Shown here: piece by piece, positions 16,624 through 23,752 of the stretch
Layout: every line of letters begins with the position of its first letter
Numbering within the stretch: position 1 is the first letter of the stretch
Program-made: the position numbers and the translations under genes
The notes under the pieces: model-generated
Told to the model about the DNA's origin: nothing
Seen by the model: the letters and a program-made list of their open reading frames with translations, nothing else
The model's database searches: none
Assembly (NCBI RefSeq): GCF_024053505.1
Contig: NZ_JAMXQS010000008.1
Location: 62,001-126,000, forward strand
Length of the DNA stretch: 64,000 bases
Reading direction: 5' to 3'
From: Mesorhizobium liriopis
Lineage (GTDB): Bacteria > Pseudomonadota > Alphaproteobacteria > Rhizobiales > Rhizobiaceae

Positions 16624-17784
16624 TCAAACATCCTCACGCACTTCGCCGTCCGAAACGCGCAGGAACTGAGCGCGGCCTTCGAGGCTGCCGAATAATTCGC
16701 GCTCGGTGCCCGTCATGAAGCTCTGGCAGCCGAGTTCGTCGAGGATGTCGAAAAGGGCCGCGCGCCGGCCGGCATCGAGATGGGCCGCGACTTCATCGAG
16801 CAGGAGCACGGGCACGGTGCCGGCGATCTCGCCCGTCAGCCGCGCATGGCTCAGGACCAAGCCGATCAGCAAGGCCTTCTGCTCGCCGGTGGAGCAGAGG
16901 GCGGCCGGCATCCTCTTGGGCGCATGGGACACGAGAAGGTCTGACCGATGCGGGCCGTCGAGCGTACGCCCGGCCGCGCGGTCGCGCTCCCGGCCATCGC
17001 GCAAGGACGCGCGGTAAGTCTCTTCGAGATCAACTGCCGCCTGACCCTCCACCTGTTCTTCGAGCGGGCCGGAAAGCGCGATGGTGGATTGCGGAAACGG
17101 GTTGTCGGCCGGCAGGCGGTCGATCATGGCCTGAAGCAGGCGAACCAGCTCGACACGGGCGGCGGCAATCGCCACGCCGGTTTCTGCCATCTGCGTCTCG
17201 ATGGCCTCGAAAAAGGCGCGGTCGCGCACATCGTCGGCAAGCAGCCTGTTACGCGAGCGCATGGCCTTCTCGAAGGCAATCGCACGCTGGCCGTGGCTCG
17301 GATCGACGGCGAGAACCAAGCGGTCGAGGAAGCGCCGCCGGTCGCCGGCCGGACCAGTGAAAAGCGTGTCCATGGAAGGGGTGAGCCAGACCACGCGCAG
17401 GATATCGAGAAGCTCGTCGGCGTTGCGGGCATTGGCGCCATTGATACGCACGCGGCGCAACAGGCCCTCGTCGGCGTTGGGAGACGCACCGGCCGTGCCC
17501 GTGCCCACCTCGCTTTCGCCTTCCGGCCCGTCGATTGCAGCATGGATCGCAAAGCCGTCGGTGCCCGCGCGCGCCACATCGGCGTAAGACGCGCGGCGCA
17601 GGCCGCGGCCGGGCGAGAGAAAGGAGATGGCTTCCAGAAGATTGGTCTTTCCCGCCCCGTTCTCGCCCGTGAATACGACCGCACCCGGCGCGAGGCCGAG
17701 CGCGAGCTGGCTGTAATTACGGAAATCGGAAAGCGTCAGCCGCGTCAGGTGGACGGCGGCTGGAGCAAGGGACTGTGAAGCCAC
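16624..17784 (-). CDS. recF: DNA replication and repair protein RecF
   Basis: RecF is an SMC-like ATPase that loads RecA at single-strand gaps together with RecO and RecR. The 386-residue protein has Walker A GENGAGKT at 40-47, the signature-like STGEQKALL segment and the Walker B VLLLDEVAAHLD. Start is GTG at 17784. It lies 15 bp after dnaN in the same direction, so a dnaN-recF transcript is likely. recR is also in this window (56702). Confidence 0.95.
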   Translation of the reverse strand: MASQSLAPAAVHLTRLTLSDFRNYSQLALGLAPGAVVFTGENGAGKTNLLEAISFLSPGRGLRRASYADVARAGTDGFAIHAAIDGPEGESEVGTGTAGASPNADEGLLRRVRINGANARNADELLDILRVVWLTPSMDTLFTGPAGDRRRFLDRLVLAVDPSHGQRAIAFEKAMRSRNRLLADDVRDRAFFEAIETQMAETGVAIAAARVELVRLLQAMIDRLPADNPFPQSTIALSGPLEEQVEGQAAVDLEETYRASLRDGRERDRAAGRTLDGPHRSDLLVSHAPKRMPAALCSTGEQKALLIGLVLSHARLTGEIAGTVPVLLLDEVAAHLDAGRRAALFDILDELGCQSFMTGTERELFGSLEGRAQFLRVSDGEVREDV

Positions 17785-17799
17785 AGGATGGGATGCGCG

Positions 17800-18921
17800 C
17801 TAAACGCGCATCGGCATCAGCACGTAAAGCGCCTGGTCGTCGCTCTGGTCGTGGATCAGCGTGGGCGAGCCCGCATCGGCCAGCATGAAGCGCGCCTCCG
17901 AGCCCGAAAGCTGGCCGGCGACGTCGAGCAGATAGCGGGCATTGAAGCCGATCTCGATGGGCTCCGCCGAGTAGTCGGCCGCGAGCTCTTCGGTCGCCGA
18001 GCCGGAGTCGGGATTGTTCACCGCGAGCACCAGCTGGCCGTCATTGATGGAAAGCTTCACCGCACGACCGCGCTCCGACGAGATCGTGGACACGCGGTCC
18101 ACGGCCTGCGCGAAGGACTGGCGGTCGATCACGAGTTGCTTGTCGTTCTGGGTCGGGATCACGCGCTGGTAGTCGGGGAAGGTGCCATCGATCAGCTTCG
18201 AGGTCAGCACGATGCCGCCGATGGTGAAGCGGATCTTGGTTTCGGAAAGCTCGACACCTACCGTCTGCTCGGCGTCGCCATCGAGCAGCTTCTGCAACTC
18301 GCCGACCGTCTTGCGCGGAATGATGATGCCCGGCATGCCTTCAGCACCCGAAGGGGCTTCCACTTCGGCGCGCGCCAGACGGTGACCGTCGGTCGCGACT
18401 GCGCGCAGCTTCAGCTTGCCGTCCGATTCGATGGCGTGAAAGAAGATGCCGTTGAGGTAGTAGCGCGTTTCTTCCGTCGAGATCGCGAACTGCGTCTTGT
18501 CGATCAGGCCCTTTAGCGAGGGACCGTCGATGGAGAAGGAATGCGAGAAGGAGCCGGCGGAGAGTTCGGGGAAATCTGACTGCGGCAGGCACTGGAGGCG
18601 GAAGGACGAGCGGCCGGCGACGACCGTCATCGCATTGCCGTCCTCGTCGAGCTTCAGCATGACTTCCGCGCCATCGGGCAGCTTGCGCACGATGTCGTAG
18701 AGGAGATGCGCCGGCACGGTGGTCGCGCCCGGCTGATCGACGCGGGCAAGCGTCGCCTCGGTGATTTCAAGGTCGAGATCGGTCGCCTTCATGTCCACGC
18801 CGCCGCCCTTGGCTTCGAGCAGCACGTTGGACAGGATCGGGATCGTGTTGCGGCGTTCGACCACGCGATGCACGTGGTTCAGGGCCTTGAGAAGGTTGGA
18901 GCGTTCAAGCACGACGCGCAT
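17800..18921 (-). CDS. dnaN: DNA polymerase III beta subunit (sliding clamp)
   Basis: The beta clamp encircles DNA and tethers polymerase III. The 373-residue product spans three clamp domains and contains the usual landmarks: N-terminal MRVVLERSNLLKALNHV, NTIPILSNVLLEA, and the C-terminal YVLMPMRV that closes the dimer/peptide-binding pocket. It is downstream of dnaA in the same direction with a hairpin between them, so it is probably transcribed at least partly from its own promoter in 18922-19052. Confidence 0.97.
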   Translation of the reverse strand: MRVVLERSNLLKALNHVHRVVERRNTIPILSNVLLEAKGGGVDMKATDLDLEITEATLARVDQPGATTVPAHLLYDIVRKLPDGAEVMLKLDEDGNAMTVVAGRSSFRLQCLPQSDFPELSAGSFSHSFSIDGPSLKGLIDKTQFAISTEETRYYLNGIFFHAIESDGKLKLRAVATDGHRLARAEVEAPSGAEGMPGIIIPRKTVGELQKLLDGDAEQTVGVELSETKIRFTIGGIVLTSKLIDGTFPDYQRVIPTQNDKQLVIDRQSFAQAVDRVSTISSERGRAVKLSINDGQLVLAVNNPDSGSATEELAADYSAEPIEIGFNARYLLDVAGQLSGSEARFMLADAGSPTLIHDQSDDQALYVLMPMRV

Positions 18922-19101: not shown

Positions 19102-20580
19102 TCAGTCGCTGATCAGGCGGCGGAGCAGCTCGATCTCCTGCGCCAGCGTGCCGTCGGTGCCGGCGAGGCCCTCGATCTTGCGCACCGCATGGAGCACCGT
19201 GGTGTGGTCGCGGCCACCGAAGCGACGGCCGATCTCGGGCAGCGAGCGCGGCGTCATGATCTTGGCGAGATACATCGCCACCTGGCGCGGCTTGACGACC
19301 GTGCGGGTGCGGCGGTTCGAGAGCAGTTCGGTCTTCGACACGTTGTAGTGGCGGGCGACCACGCGCTGGATATCCTCAATGCGCACGCGCTTGGGCTCGC
19401 CCGAGCGGTAGATGTGGCCAAGGATCTCGTCGATGCGATCGACCGTGATCTGCGGCTCGAAGGTGCGGCGGAACAGGATCTGGTTGAAGGCCCCCTCGAG
19501 TTCGCGTCCGCTTCCCGTGACGGTGCGGGCGACATGGGCGAGCACATCTTCCGAGACATCGACGGTGGCGTCGGTCGCCTGGGCCTGTTGGAGGCGCGTC
19601 TTGAGCATGGACAGGCGCATCGCGTAGTCGGGCACCGACATTTCGAGTGCGACACCGCCATTGAGGCGCGAGCGGACGCGAGGCTCGAGCGATTCCAGCT
19701 CTGAGGGCGGACGGTCGGCGGCGACGACAACCTGCTTGGCGCTGTCGAGCAGCATGTTGAGAAGGTGGCAGAACTCGTTCTGGATCGACTTGCCCTGCAG
19801 GAACTGCATGTCGTCGATGATCAAAAGATCGATGTCGCGCAGCTGCTCCTTGAGGCTGAGCGCATTGTTGTCGCGGATCGCGGTGGCGAAGCGCCACATG
19901 AAATATTCGGCAGTGAGATAAACGACGCGGGCACGCGGGTTTTCAGTGAGCGCATGGGCGGCGATGGCCTGAAGCAGGTGCGTCTTGCCCAGACCCACGC
20001 TGGCGTGAAGGAAGAGCGGGTTGAAGCGCACGGCGTTCGGGGCCTGCTCGGCCACGGCACGGGCCGCGGCAAAGGCCACGCGGTTGGACGGACCTTCCAC
20101 GAAGGTGTCGAAGGTGTAGCGGCTGTCGAGCGGCGAGCCGAGCACGCCGCTCTGGCGCAGGTCGTTCTCATTGGCAGGCTGGGCGGTGGCGCGAGACTGT
20201 GCCGCTGCGCGTTCGACCACGGGGGCGGCAGCGGAAGCGATGCGGGCGGCGGGACGGCGGGTGTCGATCGAGACGGGGTTATCCGTGACCGGCGTCTGGG
20301 GCAGGCGGGTGGCGGAGCGCACGGCGATCTCGACGCGGAGCAGGCTCGGCTCTTCTTTCTTCCAGAGCTCGGTGATCATGTCGAGATAGTGGCTGTTGAT
20401 CCACGAGCGCAGGAAGGCAGTCGGCACCGAGATGCGGACGACCGAACGGGTCGCCTCATCGAGCTTCATGCGGCCGAACCAGCTTGAATAGACTTCCTGG
20501 CCCAGGCGCGCCTTGAGCTGCGCCTTCACCTTTTCGAAAACCGGTTCCGCACCATTCATCTCGATCGCGTTCGCAGTCAT
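19102..20580 (-). CDS. dnaA: Chromosomal replication initiator DnaA
   Basis: DnaA melts the origin and recruits the replicative helicase. The 492-residue protein shows all domains: the N-terminal oligomerisation domain (about 13-80), a linker rich in Ala (about 90-140), the AAA+ domain with Walker A GLGKT at 196-200 and Walker B LLIIDD ending at D257, and the C-terminal helix-turn-helix with the signature [19 protein letters not shown] (about 452-470). It reads away from rpsT, and its upstream region contains a dense GANTC cluster. Confidence 0.98.
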
Positions 20581-21190
20581 TTTCGTCCCCGTACTCTACT
20601 CACTCGCGGCTTTCTTCGGGCCACCCCGCCCGGAAGATCGCCGCCTCGATTTTCGGCAAGCCGAAGGCGTTCGGTGGCAAACACCACCGTCGCGCCCTCC
20701 GGGCTTTCCAGTTACACTCGAGAGCAAACCAAGCCCGTTCGCGGAAAACTCGACCCGCGCCGTGCAGTGTTGCCGATGTCCTGGTTCGGAAGGCCCTCCG
20801 CCTTCCCTCTCGATGGAGTGAACCTACGAAAATGCCTGTGGACAGATCAAGACCAGCATTAAGACAATTTTAGACAATTGCGTCCAAACACTAATCTCGC
20901 GCCAAGAGTCTTGATGAGCCGGCAACGCAAAATCGTTGTGAATCAAGACTCTTTCGGCGAGTCCAGGCGAGTTGTTAACCATTGATCGCCGCCGAAGATT
21001 CTTTCGCTTGACTCAATGCCCTGCGACCAAGACTCGCCCCGATTCCAACAAGACTCTGCCGCACCCCGACTAACCTGTTGATTCAGAGCGATATTTTCTG
21101 ACTCTGGGGAAGGGGTTGGCGGATAAGACTCACGTGGCGAAAGGCAAGTAGGCTAACGAAGATTCTTTGGGCGAAATCGAGCAGCGTTAA
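20581..21190 (-). promoter_or_regulatory. dnaA upstream region with GANTC cluster (candidate cell-cycle control region)
   Basis: This 610-bp gene-free region separates dnaA from the rpsT terminator. Twelve GANTC sites, the target of the CcrM adenine methylase, occur at 20906, 20947, 20959, 20997, 21010, 21031, 21041, 21052, 21080, 21100, 21127 and 21161 (first base). Many are in the longer context AAGANTCTT. Two DnaA-box-like 9-mers are present: TGTGGACAG at 20837 and TGTGAATCA at 20937, each with two changes from the consensus. A direct repeat AGACAATT lies near 20863-20880. No open frame is credible here. It could be a methylation-controlled dnaA promoter or part of a replication origin. 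Confidence 0.75.
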
Positions 21191-21224
21191 CGAAAAAGCC
21201 CGGCACGATGGCCGGGCTTTTTCG
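21191..21224. terminator. Bidirectional-looking terminator downstream of rpsT
   Basis: A perfect 14-bp stem, CGAAAAAGCCCGGC (21191-21204) with its complement at 21211-21224, has a 6-nt loop and A/T runs on both sides. It lies 22 nt after the rpsT stop and is the terminator of rpsT on the minus strand. Confidence 0.92.
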
Positions 21225-21246
21225 ATTTAAAAATGTTAATCGCAGA

Positions 21247-21510
21247 TCAGGCGAGGGTCTTCACCCGGTGCGCCAGACGCGAAATCTTGCGCGAAGCGGT
21301 GTTGCGGTGAAGCACGCCCTTGGAAGCAGCGCGCATCAGCTCGGGCTGTGCAGCGGTCAGGGCTGCTGCTGCTGCCGACTTGTCGCCGGTGAGCAGCGCT
21401 TCCTCGACCTTGCGGATGAAAGTGCGGATGCGCGAGCGGCGGTTCTTGTTGACTGCCGTGCGGCGGGCGATCTTGCGCGTGGCCTTTTGGGCCGACGTCG
21501 TATTGGCCAT
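21247..21510 (-). CDS. rpsT: 30S ribosomal protein S20
   Basis: S20 is a small basic primary-binding protein of the 30S subunit. The 87-residue product starts [17 protein letters not shown] and continues through the [16 protein letters not shown] helix, ending [12 protein letters not shown], as expected. An in-frame extension to 21537 is rejected because the family always starts at the MANT-like sequence. rpsT next to dnaA is a conserved alphaproteobacterial arrangement. Confidence 0.97.
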
Positions 21511-21657: not shown

Positions 21658-22548
21658 TCAGCGTTGGCAAACCGGGCAATAGAAGGTCGAGCGCCCGCTT
21701 TGCACGATGCGGGTGATCACACCCCGGCATGTGGGCTTGGGGCAGGGCTCGCCCTCACGGTCGTAAACGCTGAAGCGGTGCTGGAAATTGCCCTCGCTGC
21801 CATCGGCTTGCCGGTAATCGCGCAGGGAGGAACCGCCCGCCTCGATGGCGTCCGCAATCACCGAGCGCACGGCGGTGGCCAGCCGGTCGGCACGCAGCGA
21901 TGACTGTCCCTTGGCAGGCGCGATGGTACCAGCTGCGCGCCTCGGCGAGAGGCCCGCGCGCCAGAGCGCTTCGGAGACGTAGATATTGCCGAGGCCCGCG
22001 ATCAGCGTCTGGTCGAGAAGGGCGGCCTTCAATGGGGTCTGCTTGCCCTTGAAAAGGGTGGCCAGCATCGCGCCATCGAGCGCGTTGCCGGTCGGCTCGA
22101 CGCCCAAGCCATCCAGCATCGGATGGATGGCGGGCACTTCGGTCGCGAACAGCATGAAGCCGAAGCGGCGCGGGTCGTTGAAGATCACGCGGCGGGTAAC
22201 GTCATCGCGGCAGAGCAGGTGGAAGACGACGTGGTCATGCGCCTCGAGCTTGGAGCGCGGATGGTGGAAGAGCCCCGGCGTCAGGCTTTCGTCTTCCGTC
22301 TGCACGCGAAACGCGCCCGACATGCCGAGATGGCAGATCAGCGGCGGACCTTGGTCGAGATAAAGAAGCAGATATTTCGCGCGCCGGCCGAGGCTGACGA
22401 TGGTTCTGCCTTCAAGCGTCTCGGCGAAGCGCTCGGGAAAGGGAAAGCGCAGATTCGCGCGTCGCGTCTCGACCTTGAGGACCTTCGCGCCTTCCATGGT
22501 CGGCTCGAGACCACGCCGGACGGTTTCGACTTCCGGCAATTCAGGCAC
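21658..22548 (-). CDS. mutM: Formamidopyrimidine-DNA glycosylase (Fpg/MutM)
   Basis: MutM excises oxidised purines such as 8-oxoguanine and cleaves the resulting abasic site. The start is taken as the GTG at 22548, because the catalytic N-terminal proline must follow the initiator methionine ([13 protein letters not shown]) and a GGAG site lies 6 nt upstream. The product has 296 residues, the [11 protein letters not shown] strand with the catalytic lysine region, and a C-terminal zinc finger with four cysteines (CPKPTC and CPVC). Its start overlaps the end of deoB by 8 bp, which suggests coupling. Confidence 0.96.
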
Positions 22549-23752
22549 GGATTTCTCCAAGGAACGAACGCCCGTATGGGCCGGGAGCGATTCCCAGATG
22601 CTCGGCCACCGTCTCGCCGATATCGCTGAAACAAGAACGCAAACCCACCGAGCCTCCCCTCAGGCCGGGCGCAAGGCCCAGGATCGGCACGCGTTCGCGC
22701 GTGTGATCCGTGCCTTTCCAGGTCGGGTCGCAGCCATGGTCGGCGGTCAGGATCAGCATGTCGCCGGGTTTCAGCACGGCAAAGGCTTCCGGCAGCCGCC
22801 TGTCGAACGCTTCGAGCGCCGCCGCATAGCCGCCTGCGTCACGGCGGTGGCCGAAGATCATGTCGAAATCGACGAAGTTCGCGAAAACCAGATCGCCATC
22901 TTCCGCCTCATTCATCGCGCGCAACGCTTCGTCCCAGACGGCATCGTTGCCCGACGCCTTGCGCGAGACCGTGATACCCTTTTGTGCGAAGATGTCGCCG
23001 ATCTTGCCGATGGCGAAGACTCTACCGCCTGCCGCCTCGATGCGGTCGAGGAGTGTCGGTTCGGGTGGCGGCACGGCCAGATCGCGCCGGTTGCCGGTGC
23101 GCACGAAACCGCTTGCCGCGTCACCCACGAAGGGCCGCGCGATCACGCGGCCGATATTGAGCGGGTCGACCAAGTGCCGTGCGATGCCGCAGAGATCGTA
23201 AAGCCGTTGGAGGCCGAAGCTCTCCTCATGGGCCGCGATCTGGAGAACGGAGTCGGCCGAAGTATAAAGAATGGGCTTGCCCGTCTCCATATGCTCGGCG
23301 CCGAGGCGGGCGATGATTTCGGTGCCCGAAGCGTGGCAATCACCGAGAATGCCGGGAAGAGCGGCCTCGTCGATGAGCGCCTCGATCAGCGAGGCAGGAA
23401 AGGCCGGAACCGTTTGCGGGAAGTAGCCCCAGTCGAACGGAACGGGGAGGCCGGCAATCTCCCAATGTCCGGAAGGCGTGTCCTTGCCTTTGGAGATTTC
23501 GGTGGCCGCGCCATGAAAGCTATGGGGCAAAAGTGCCGAGGCCGGGAACAGTCGATGTGCCGATGCGAGCGCCGCCGAAACGCCAAGGCCGAGTGCCGCC
23601 ATATGGGGCAGGCTCAGCGCTTGCTCCCGCGCCTCTTCGCAGAAGCGCGCGATGTGCCCCAGCGTATCGGCACCGGAATCGCCGAAATCCGCGGCATCGG
23701 GCGCGCCGCCGATCCCAAAGGAATCGAGAACAAACAAAAAGGCACGCGCCAT
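22541..23752 (-). CDS. deoB: Phosphopentomutase DeoB
   Basis: DeoB interconverts ribose-1- and ribose-5-phosphate (and deoxyribose forms) in nucleoside salvage. The 403-residue product has the alkaline-phosphatase-like metal sites: [14 protein letters not shown] at the N-terminus and [18 protein letters not shown] near the C-terminus. The [12 protein letters not shown]-type region is present as [12 protein letters not shown]. It is the upstream partner of mutM in a two-gene unit; no other nucleoside-salvage gene is adjacent in this window. Confidence 0.96.

Follow-up and report, generated by a model that had tools for sequence, protein, structure and literature searches.

In the 64-kb window (the whole stretch of DNA that was analysed), the dnaA gene lies on the minus strand at 19102..20580, encodes 492 aa and begins with an ATG at 20580. 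It is followed on the same strand by dnaN (17800..18921) and recF (16624..17784). Its upstream neighbour is rpsT (S20; 21247..21510, minus strand), beyond which lies a mutM/fpg-like gene with an approximate start (21658..22560, minus strand); the names of these four genes were recognised from the sequence. A likely rpsT terminator, a GC-rich inverted repeat between A and T runs, was placed by eye at 21193..21224, and the list given by a scan does not contain it. The dnaA promoter that we infer, TTGATC - 18 nt - TAGGTT on the minus strand (20821..20850), was likewise placed by eye, against a promoter-like block of the relatives described below, and it overlaps CTGTCCACA, a DnaA box with 2 mismatches. 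The promoter pattern used for the relatives has no match at 20821..20850 itself, and a promoter scan missed this promoter and reported one on the opposite strand. Between rpsT and the promoter, 13 GANTC sites form an array at 20906..21165.

The sites start at 20906, 20940, 20947, 20959, 20997, 21010, 21031, 21041, 21052, 21080, 21100, 21127 and 21161. They span 260 bp, lie 326-585 bp from the dnaA ATG, precede the inferred -35 box by about 55 to 315 bp, and reach at best five sites within 60 bp. An earlier note on this DNA had listed twelve sites in the 260 bp; all 12 positions are correct, and a thirteenth site, the GAATC at 20940, was missed. The distance that it gave from the dnaA start, and the closeness of the array to the rpsT terminator, are borne out by the coordinates. 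Two DnaA-box-like 9-mers noted nearby proved weak: in the dnaA-rpsT intergenic region no DnaA box was found within one mismatch of TTATCCACA, and three were found at 2 mismatches. Helical phasing of the sites is weak (p 0.054, 0.025, 0.188, 0.497 and 0.569 at 10.0, 10.25, 10.5, 10.75 and 11.0 bp, respectively). Local repeat expansion was also considered and rejected; the array contains three imperfect inverted pairs and a single family of 12-bp direct repeats, and therefore cannot be put down to local duplication. A search for RNA families in the array gave nine matches up to E 1, all under the gathering scores, the best of which (BSnc120, 28.8 vs 114 bits) takes in the end of the array and overlaps with the likely terminator of rpsT. 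This sub-threshold likeness to the Brucella sRNA extends over 21143-21238 on the plus strand.

GANTC is depleted in the window, which holds 87 sites against 340.5 (sd 17.4) in dinucleotide shuffles. A genome sample was made up of the window and 40 stretches of 20 kb (864 kb, 19% of 4.48 Mb), into which the stretches holding hemE, gcrA and ccrM were put deliberately. Outside the array its GANTC background is 1.279/kb, about one site per 780 bp and not one per 256 bp as had been assumed for chance. It can be seen that the dnaA array is the densest 260-bp window of the sample with 13 sites, the next ones holding 6, 5, 5 and 5; within this 19% of the genome it is thus the top cluster, as the earlier note had proposed to check by counting. 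At the genome rate, the Poisson probability of 13 sites in 260 bp is 7e-17. The runners-up are the hemE-ppsR region (6), the region upstream of gcrA (5) and two spots in one stretch (5 each), and at least four GANTC per 60 bp are reached in the 864 kb only by the dnaA array and by an array beside hemE. Upstream of gcrA, the five sites lie 30-215 bp from the start assumed here (L125 12145-12328, contig C1 of G000), and this region resembles the gcrA promoter of A. tumefaciens, for which many sites are reported. As for the two other 5-site clusters (L123 1102-1260 and 4701-4945, contig C11 of G000), one is in a glycosyltransferase-like frame and the other extends from the start of a gene into intergenic DNA. 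In G033, a relative with a complete genome, 400 kb of sampled sequence contain two 7-site windows (L144 7472-7612 and L140 7119-7277), both intergenic, one just upstream of a ddl-like gene and the other beside a long helicase-like frame (both names recognised from the sequence). In many bacteria ddl lies next to ftsQAZ. Dense GANTC upstream regions are not confined to replication loci, and the dnaA array is extreme but not unique in kind.

The flanks of the array sites carry a bias of their own. A or T flanks GANTC at 21 of 26 array positions, as against 605 of 2198 elsewhere; TT follows the half-site in 11 of 26 cases, as against 54 of 1170 in 464 kb; and the palindrome AAGANTCTT, said earlier to embrace many of the sites, is found at 4 of the 13, these being 4 of only 16 copies genome-wide. 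Such features would suit sites that bind another regulator, for example MucR or a dimer reading AAGANTCTT, the match to CcrM then being secondary or the regulator excluding CcrM; in Caulobacter and S. meliloti, MucR is reported to shield GANTC from CcrM (PMC5172544). This explanation seems unlikely to us: part of the flank bias is accounted for by the AT content of the array (48%, above that of the genome), the full AAGANTCTT is confined to the four sites just mentioned, and, GANTC being otherwise depleted in the genome, an accidental cluster of exactly this motif is improbable. Two words were also tried as genome-wide motifs and rejected, AAGANTCTT with 16 matches vs 15 for its reversed control and GANTCTTTCG with 17 vs 13.

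The orthologous region flanked by rpsT and dnaA was compared in 141 relatives (127 distinct sequences, some genomes counted twice), 7 of 109 and 1 of 40 loci having been left out for want of a usable rpsT match; all conservation counts are without correction for relatedness. The listed relatives, the named ones including Mesorhizobium and Nitratireductor, have DnaA identities of at most 79%, and no same-genus genome is among them. Two GANTC per 260 bp were found in 45 of the 141 relatives and three in another 45, while the maxima are 8 in one relative, 7 in two and 6 in five. Four sites in 60 bp occur in a single relative, compared with five at this locus, and no counterpart of the 13-site array was observed in any of the 141. 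A further 27 dnaA-upstream loci outside this set reach at most 7 sites per 260 bp; in G033, dnaA stands at a contig start and its upstream region falls outside the comparison. When the array region was searched as DNA against 394 family genomes, only matches of 23-48 bases were obtained, in 8 of the 393 others. Smaller expansions exist in relatives, and the 13 sites are an outlier. Loci with 7-8 GANTC per 260 bp upstream of dnaA are also seen in other genera (L290, L293, L298), perhaps as independent expansions.

Enrichment as such is widespread. The orthologous regions of the 141 relatives hold 4.3 GANTC/kb; for 102 relatives the whole region holds 4.04/kb vs 1.53/kb in the remaining locus sequence, and in 80 named dnaA loci (897 kb) all three windows with at least 5 GANTC per 260 bp lie upstream of dnaA. 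The dnaA promoter block of the relatives, seen also in the listed part of an alignment of 27, was recognised by a pattern of the CTTGCC..TAATGT type in 103 of the 141. In these 103, the GANTC density is 9.2/kb over the 300 bp that precede the -35 box vs 1.6/kb from the box to the ATG. The sites peak at -100..-81 (104 sites) and -40..-21 (74 sites), counted from the -35 hexamer. The first peak corresponds to an element, here called element b, of the form TTTGAATCACAA, which occurs in permissive form anywhere in the region in 127 of 141 relatives and in the strict form TTGA[AT]TCACAA in 63. Our locus keeps a GANTC at -94, within this peak. Element b is present on the dnaA strand as TTGATTCACAA (20936-20946, minus strand), directly preceded by an extra GAGTC (20947-20951) that brings the element to 20936..20951; the strict form lies at -366 from the ATG. 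The element of the second peak, GATTCNTTAAAA, stands next to the -35 box in 66 of 141 relatives and is absent here, and a third element, GAGTCAAG, is found in 27 of 141 and here at -434. Of the 13 sites, we take two or three to be inherited positions and about ten to be lineage-specific. On the conservation that the earlier note had proposed to check in relatives the answer is mixed: one element is retained, but the 13-site array recurs in 0 of 141. These results suggest that the placing of GANTC ahead of the dnaA promoter is a family theme, enlarged here.

Some of the same counts could be read as neutral accumulation, in which GANTC would be counter-selected mainly in coding DNA and would have drifted up in the dnaA-rpsT intergenic region. 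The orthologous regions already stand at an elevated rate, most site positions are not common to the relatives, and in Ensifer the intergenic frequency of GANTC is reported to be about twice the coding one (PMC8725594). However, with the average density of the orthologous regions as background, the Poisson probability of 13 sites in 260 bp is 2e-10; with the higher density found immediately ahead of the relatives' dnaA promoters it is 1.5e-6. As a comparable cluster is also absent from the 864 kb, we hold neutral accumulation to be very unlikely. The evidence for a replacement of DnaA boxes by GANTC is weak (Spearman -0.17, p 0.048, relatedness not corrected): a DnaA box within one mismatch is present in the dnaA upstream region of 116 of the 141 relatives, and 25 others are without one as well.

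The second array consists of five GANTC in 46 bp immediately upstream of hemE (L121 1966-2011; contig C11 of G000, 121966-122011), 10-55 bp from the hemE start. The hemE-ppsR region of our genome (ppsR named from the sequence) has five DnaA boxes within one mismatch; nowhere else in the 864 kb do at least 3 such boxes fall within 400 bp. As hemE and COG1806 are reported to flank the Caulobacter-type origin (PMC1914354), the hemE-ppsR region is presumed to be the chromosomal origin. Beside hemE, the arrangement GATTC-N5-GAGTC-N3-GAATC-N4-GACTC or similar was observed in 7 of 30 loci including our own (also L155-L171), and 15 of 30 have the N3 pair. A density of at least four GANTC per 60 bp is reached there by 14 of 37 loci, our own included. 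In the 135 bp beside hemE, distant loci of the same family (L176-L183) carry 1-2 GANTC; in other families 20 of 22 loci carry 0-2, and the remaining two 3 and 4. The 13-mer TGTTGGAATCGGG (21038..21050, minus strand) is common to the dnaA and hemE arrays and is found nowhere else in the genome. When both arrays were shuffled with GANTC kept, a shared word of at least 13 was obtained in 7 of 3000 trials.

It had been suggested that the dnaA array might serve origin function. An origin at dnaA, with the array as part of it, would agree with the gene order dnaA-dnaN-recF, with the DnaA boxes found there in most relatives, and with the GC skew of the dnaA contig, which passes from negative to positive values in the stretch of about 58 to 82 kb that includes dnaA, a clearer change than that of the hemE contig, where the skew rises from negative only to about zero. 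The mapping by skew proposed in the earlier note therefore gives a sign change near dnaA in this draft genome, and for that reason the odds of an origin at dnaA are slightly raised; they remain low. In one complete relative the skew changes sign at 0.27-0.50 Mb and 3.02-3.25 Mb (twenty noisy samples, several of them out of line), and the interval lying opposite the second change includes hemE (0.70 Mb) but leaves out dnaA (0), which leans to the hemE side but is not decisive. Since the array region lacks a DnaA box within one mismatch and the sole DnaA-box group in the sample is that at hemE-ppsR, an origin at dnaA is highly improbable and is not favoured here.

The machinery for GANTC methylation is encoded in this genome. 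CcrM is represented by a 388-aa ORF with a DPPYNL motif and a RAMA domain over the cut-off (E 3.2e-18), and GcrA by a PF07750 match (E 1.5e-52). No PF03925 match, which would indicate SeqA, was found in the genome, and the E. coli control was positive. CcrM is reported to act at the end of replication, so that loci stay hemimethylated after the fork has passed (PMC8725594).

The two arrays together raise the possibility of sequestration, modelled on SeqA acting on GATC in E. coli: a putative protein would bind hemimethylated GANTC clusters at the dnaA promoter and at oriC and would block both until CcrM re-methylates them. E. coli offers the precedent: its dnaA promoter carries 8 GATC, and its oriC has 11 (PMC10073500). 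In the 864 kb only the dnaA and hemE-ppsR arrays, the latter at the predicted oriC, reach the density of at least four sites per 60 bp; they have a 13-mer in common that is unique to them; and the spacing and density of the hemE array recur in relatives as given above. Read most broadly, relatives of Mesorhizobium would have evolved, independently of Dam/SeqA, sequence-sharing GANTC arrays at the origin and the dnaA promoter, silenced for the rest of the cycle by a putative hemimethylation-sensitive reader, the dnaA arm being extreme here; this broad version we offer only tentatively and with a low expectation. Sequestration itself we consider rather unlikely. A SeqA homologue was not found, and because CcrM works at the end of replication hemimethylation would persist without any protection. 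In A. tumefaciens, ori1 is reported not to be significantly changed by CcrM depletion or excess (PMC11514494). Moreover, the hemE array may serve hemE only, the hemE stretch was chosen on purpose in a sample that covers 19% of the genome, and one relative has 4 GANTC per 60 bp at places outside both loci. Thus the sequestration-like array of the earlier note gains a second array beside hemE but no SeqA homologue.

In the reading that we prefer, the 13 sites probably belong to an enlarged control block ahead of the dnaA promoter, through which CcrM methylation is read. The array sites would be fully methylated before replication and, once the fork has passed, hemimethylated until replication ends and CcrM appears; the methylation state of the block, read by RNA polymerase directly or via GcrA or another factor, would alter dnaA transcription, so that DnaA synthesis would follow fork passage. 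The many clustered sites would sharpen or lengthen the switch. In A. tumefaciens the gcrA promoter is reported to carry 6 GANTC within 250 bp, and methylation to lower its activity there as well as in E. coli (PMC11514494). By analogy with it, less dnaA transcription in the fully methylated state would be the likelier sign. For dnaA of Caulobacter the sign is opposite to that of the A. tumefaciens gcrA promoter. We infer the methylation of the sites, the response of dnaA, its direction and its sharpening; what is observed is the array, its extremity in the sample, the preferred GANTC positions in relatives, the CcrM and GcrA genes and the denser GANTC at hemE and gcrA. In this form the methylation timer for dnaA proposed in the earlier note gains support from CcrM with its RAMA domain, from GcrA and from the family-wide GANTC upstream of the dnaA promoter. 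Against it stand the distance of the sites from the inferred -35 box, the missing GATTCNTTAAAA near that box, the lack of a counterpart of the full array in the 141 relatives and the dense GANTC found at loci unrelated to replication. Simple GcrA control of the Caulobacter type appears less suitable, the Caulobacter GcrA consensus being given as YGAKTCK (PMC7987155): it fits 2 of the 13 array sites, which is not above the background of 282 of 1099, and the array lies well upstream.

Promoters under CcrM control in Caulobacter (ctrA P1, mipZ, dnaA, ftsZ) have in common with this locus CcrM, GcrA and GANTC upstream of the promoter of a cell-cycle gene. They are reported to carry one site at ctrA P1 and two at mipZ (PMC3667746), and up to five or six sites in 300 bp upstream of ctrA are described for some orders (PMC8116508). 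In contrast, the sites here number 13 in 260 bp, begin 55 bp and end 315 bp from the inferred -35 box and include few of the YGAKTCK type. The methylation state is reported to affect the dnaA promoter of Caulobacter (PMC3973325), and in S. meliloti dnaA ranks among the top intergenic hits for GANTC methylation (PMC11711589). The gcrA promoter of A. tumefaciens, with several GANTC likewise upstream of a cell-cycle regulator, is a precedent for many-site control; it concerns another gene with half as many sites, and regulation was shown there whereas our evidence is from sequence. The GATC clusters of the Dam/SeqA system are likewise arrays at the initiator promoter and at the origin, the latter only presumed here, but motif and methyltransferase differ, SeqA was not found, and CcrM, unlike Dam, is restricted in the cell cycle (PMC6090056). 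In related bacteria GANTC is also known to be enriched where replication is controlled: repABC origins and repE promoters are reported to be GANTC-rich (PMC6090056; PMC11514494); those replicons use RepC, whereas the array here belongs to the chromosomal dnaA locus. In the open-access texts consulted, a GANTC array was found described neither for the dnaA promoter of a rhizobium nor for the neighbourhood of hemE.

The arrangement recalls the use that E. coli makes of another methylation site, and may help to time replication. To our knowledge, it is still an open question whether GANTC hemimethylation restrains the chromosomal origin or the supply of initiator in alphaproteobacteria, and this genome makes the question directly testable. 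In the parts of the A. tumefaciens study that were available, dnaA is not named as CcrM-regulated (PMC11514494), promoters being defined there as the 200 bp upstream of ORFs only. Such surveys may miss dnaA, whose inferred promoter in the relatives lies at a median of 456 bp from the start codon.
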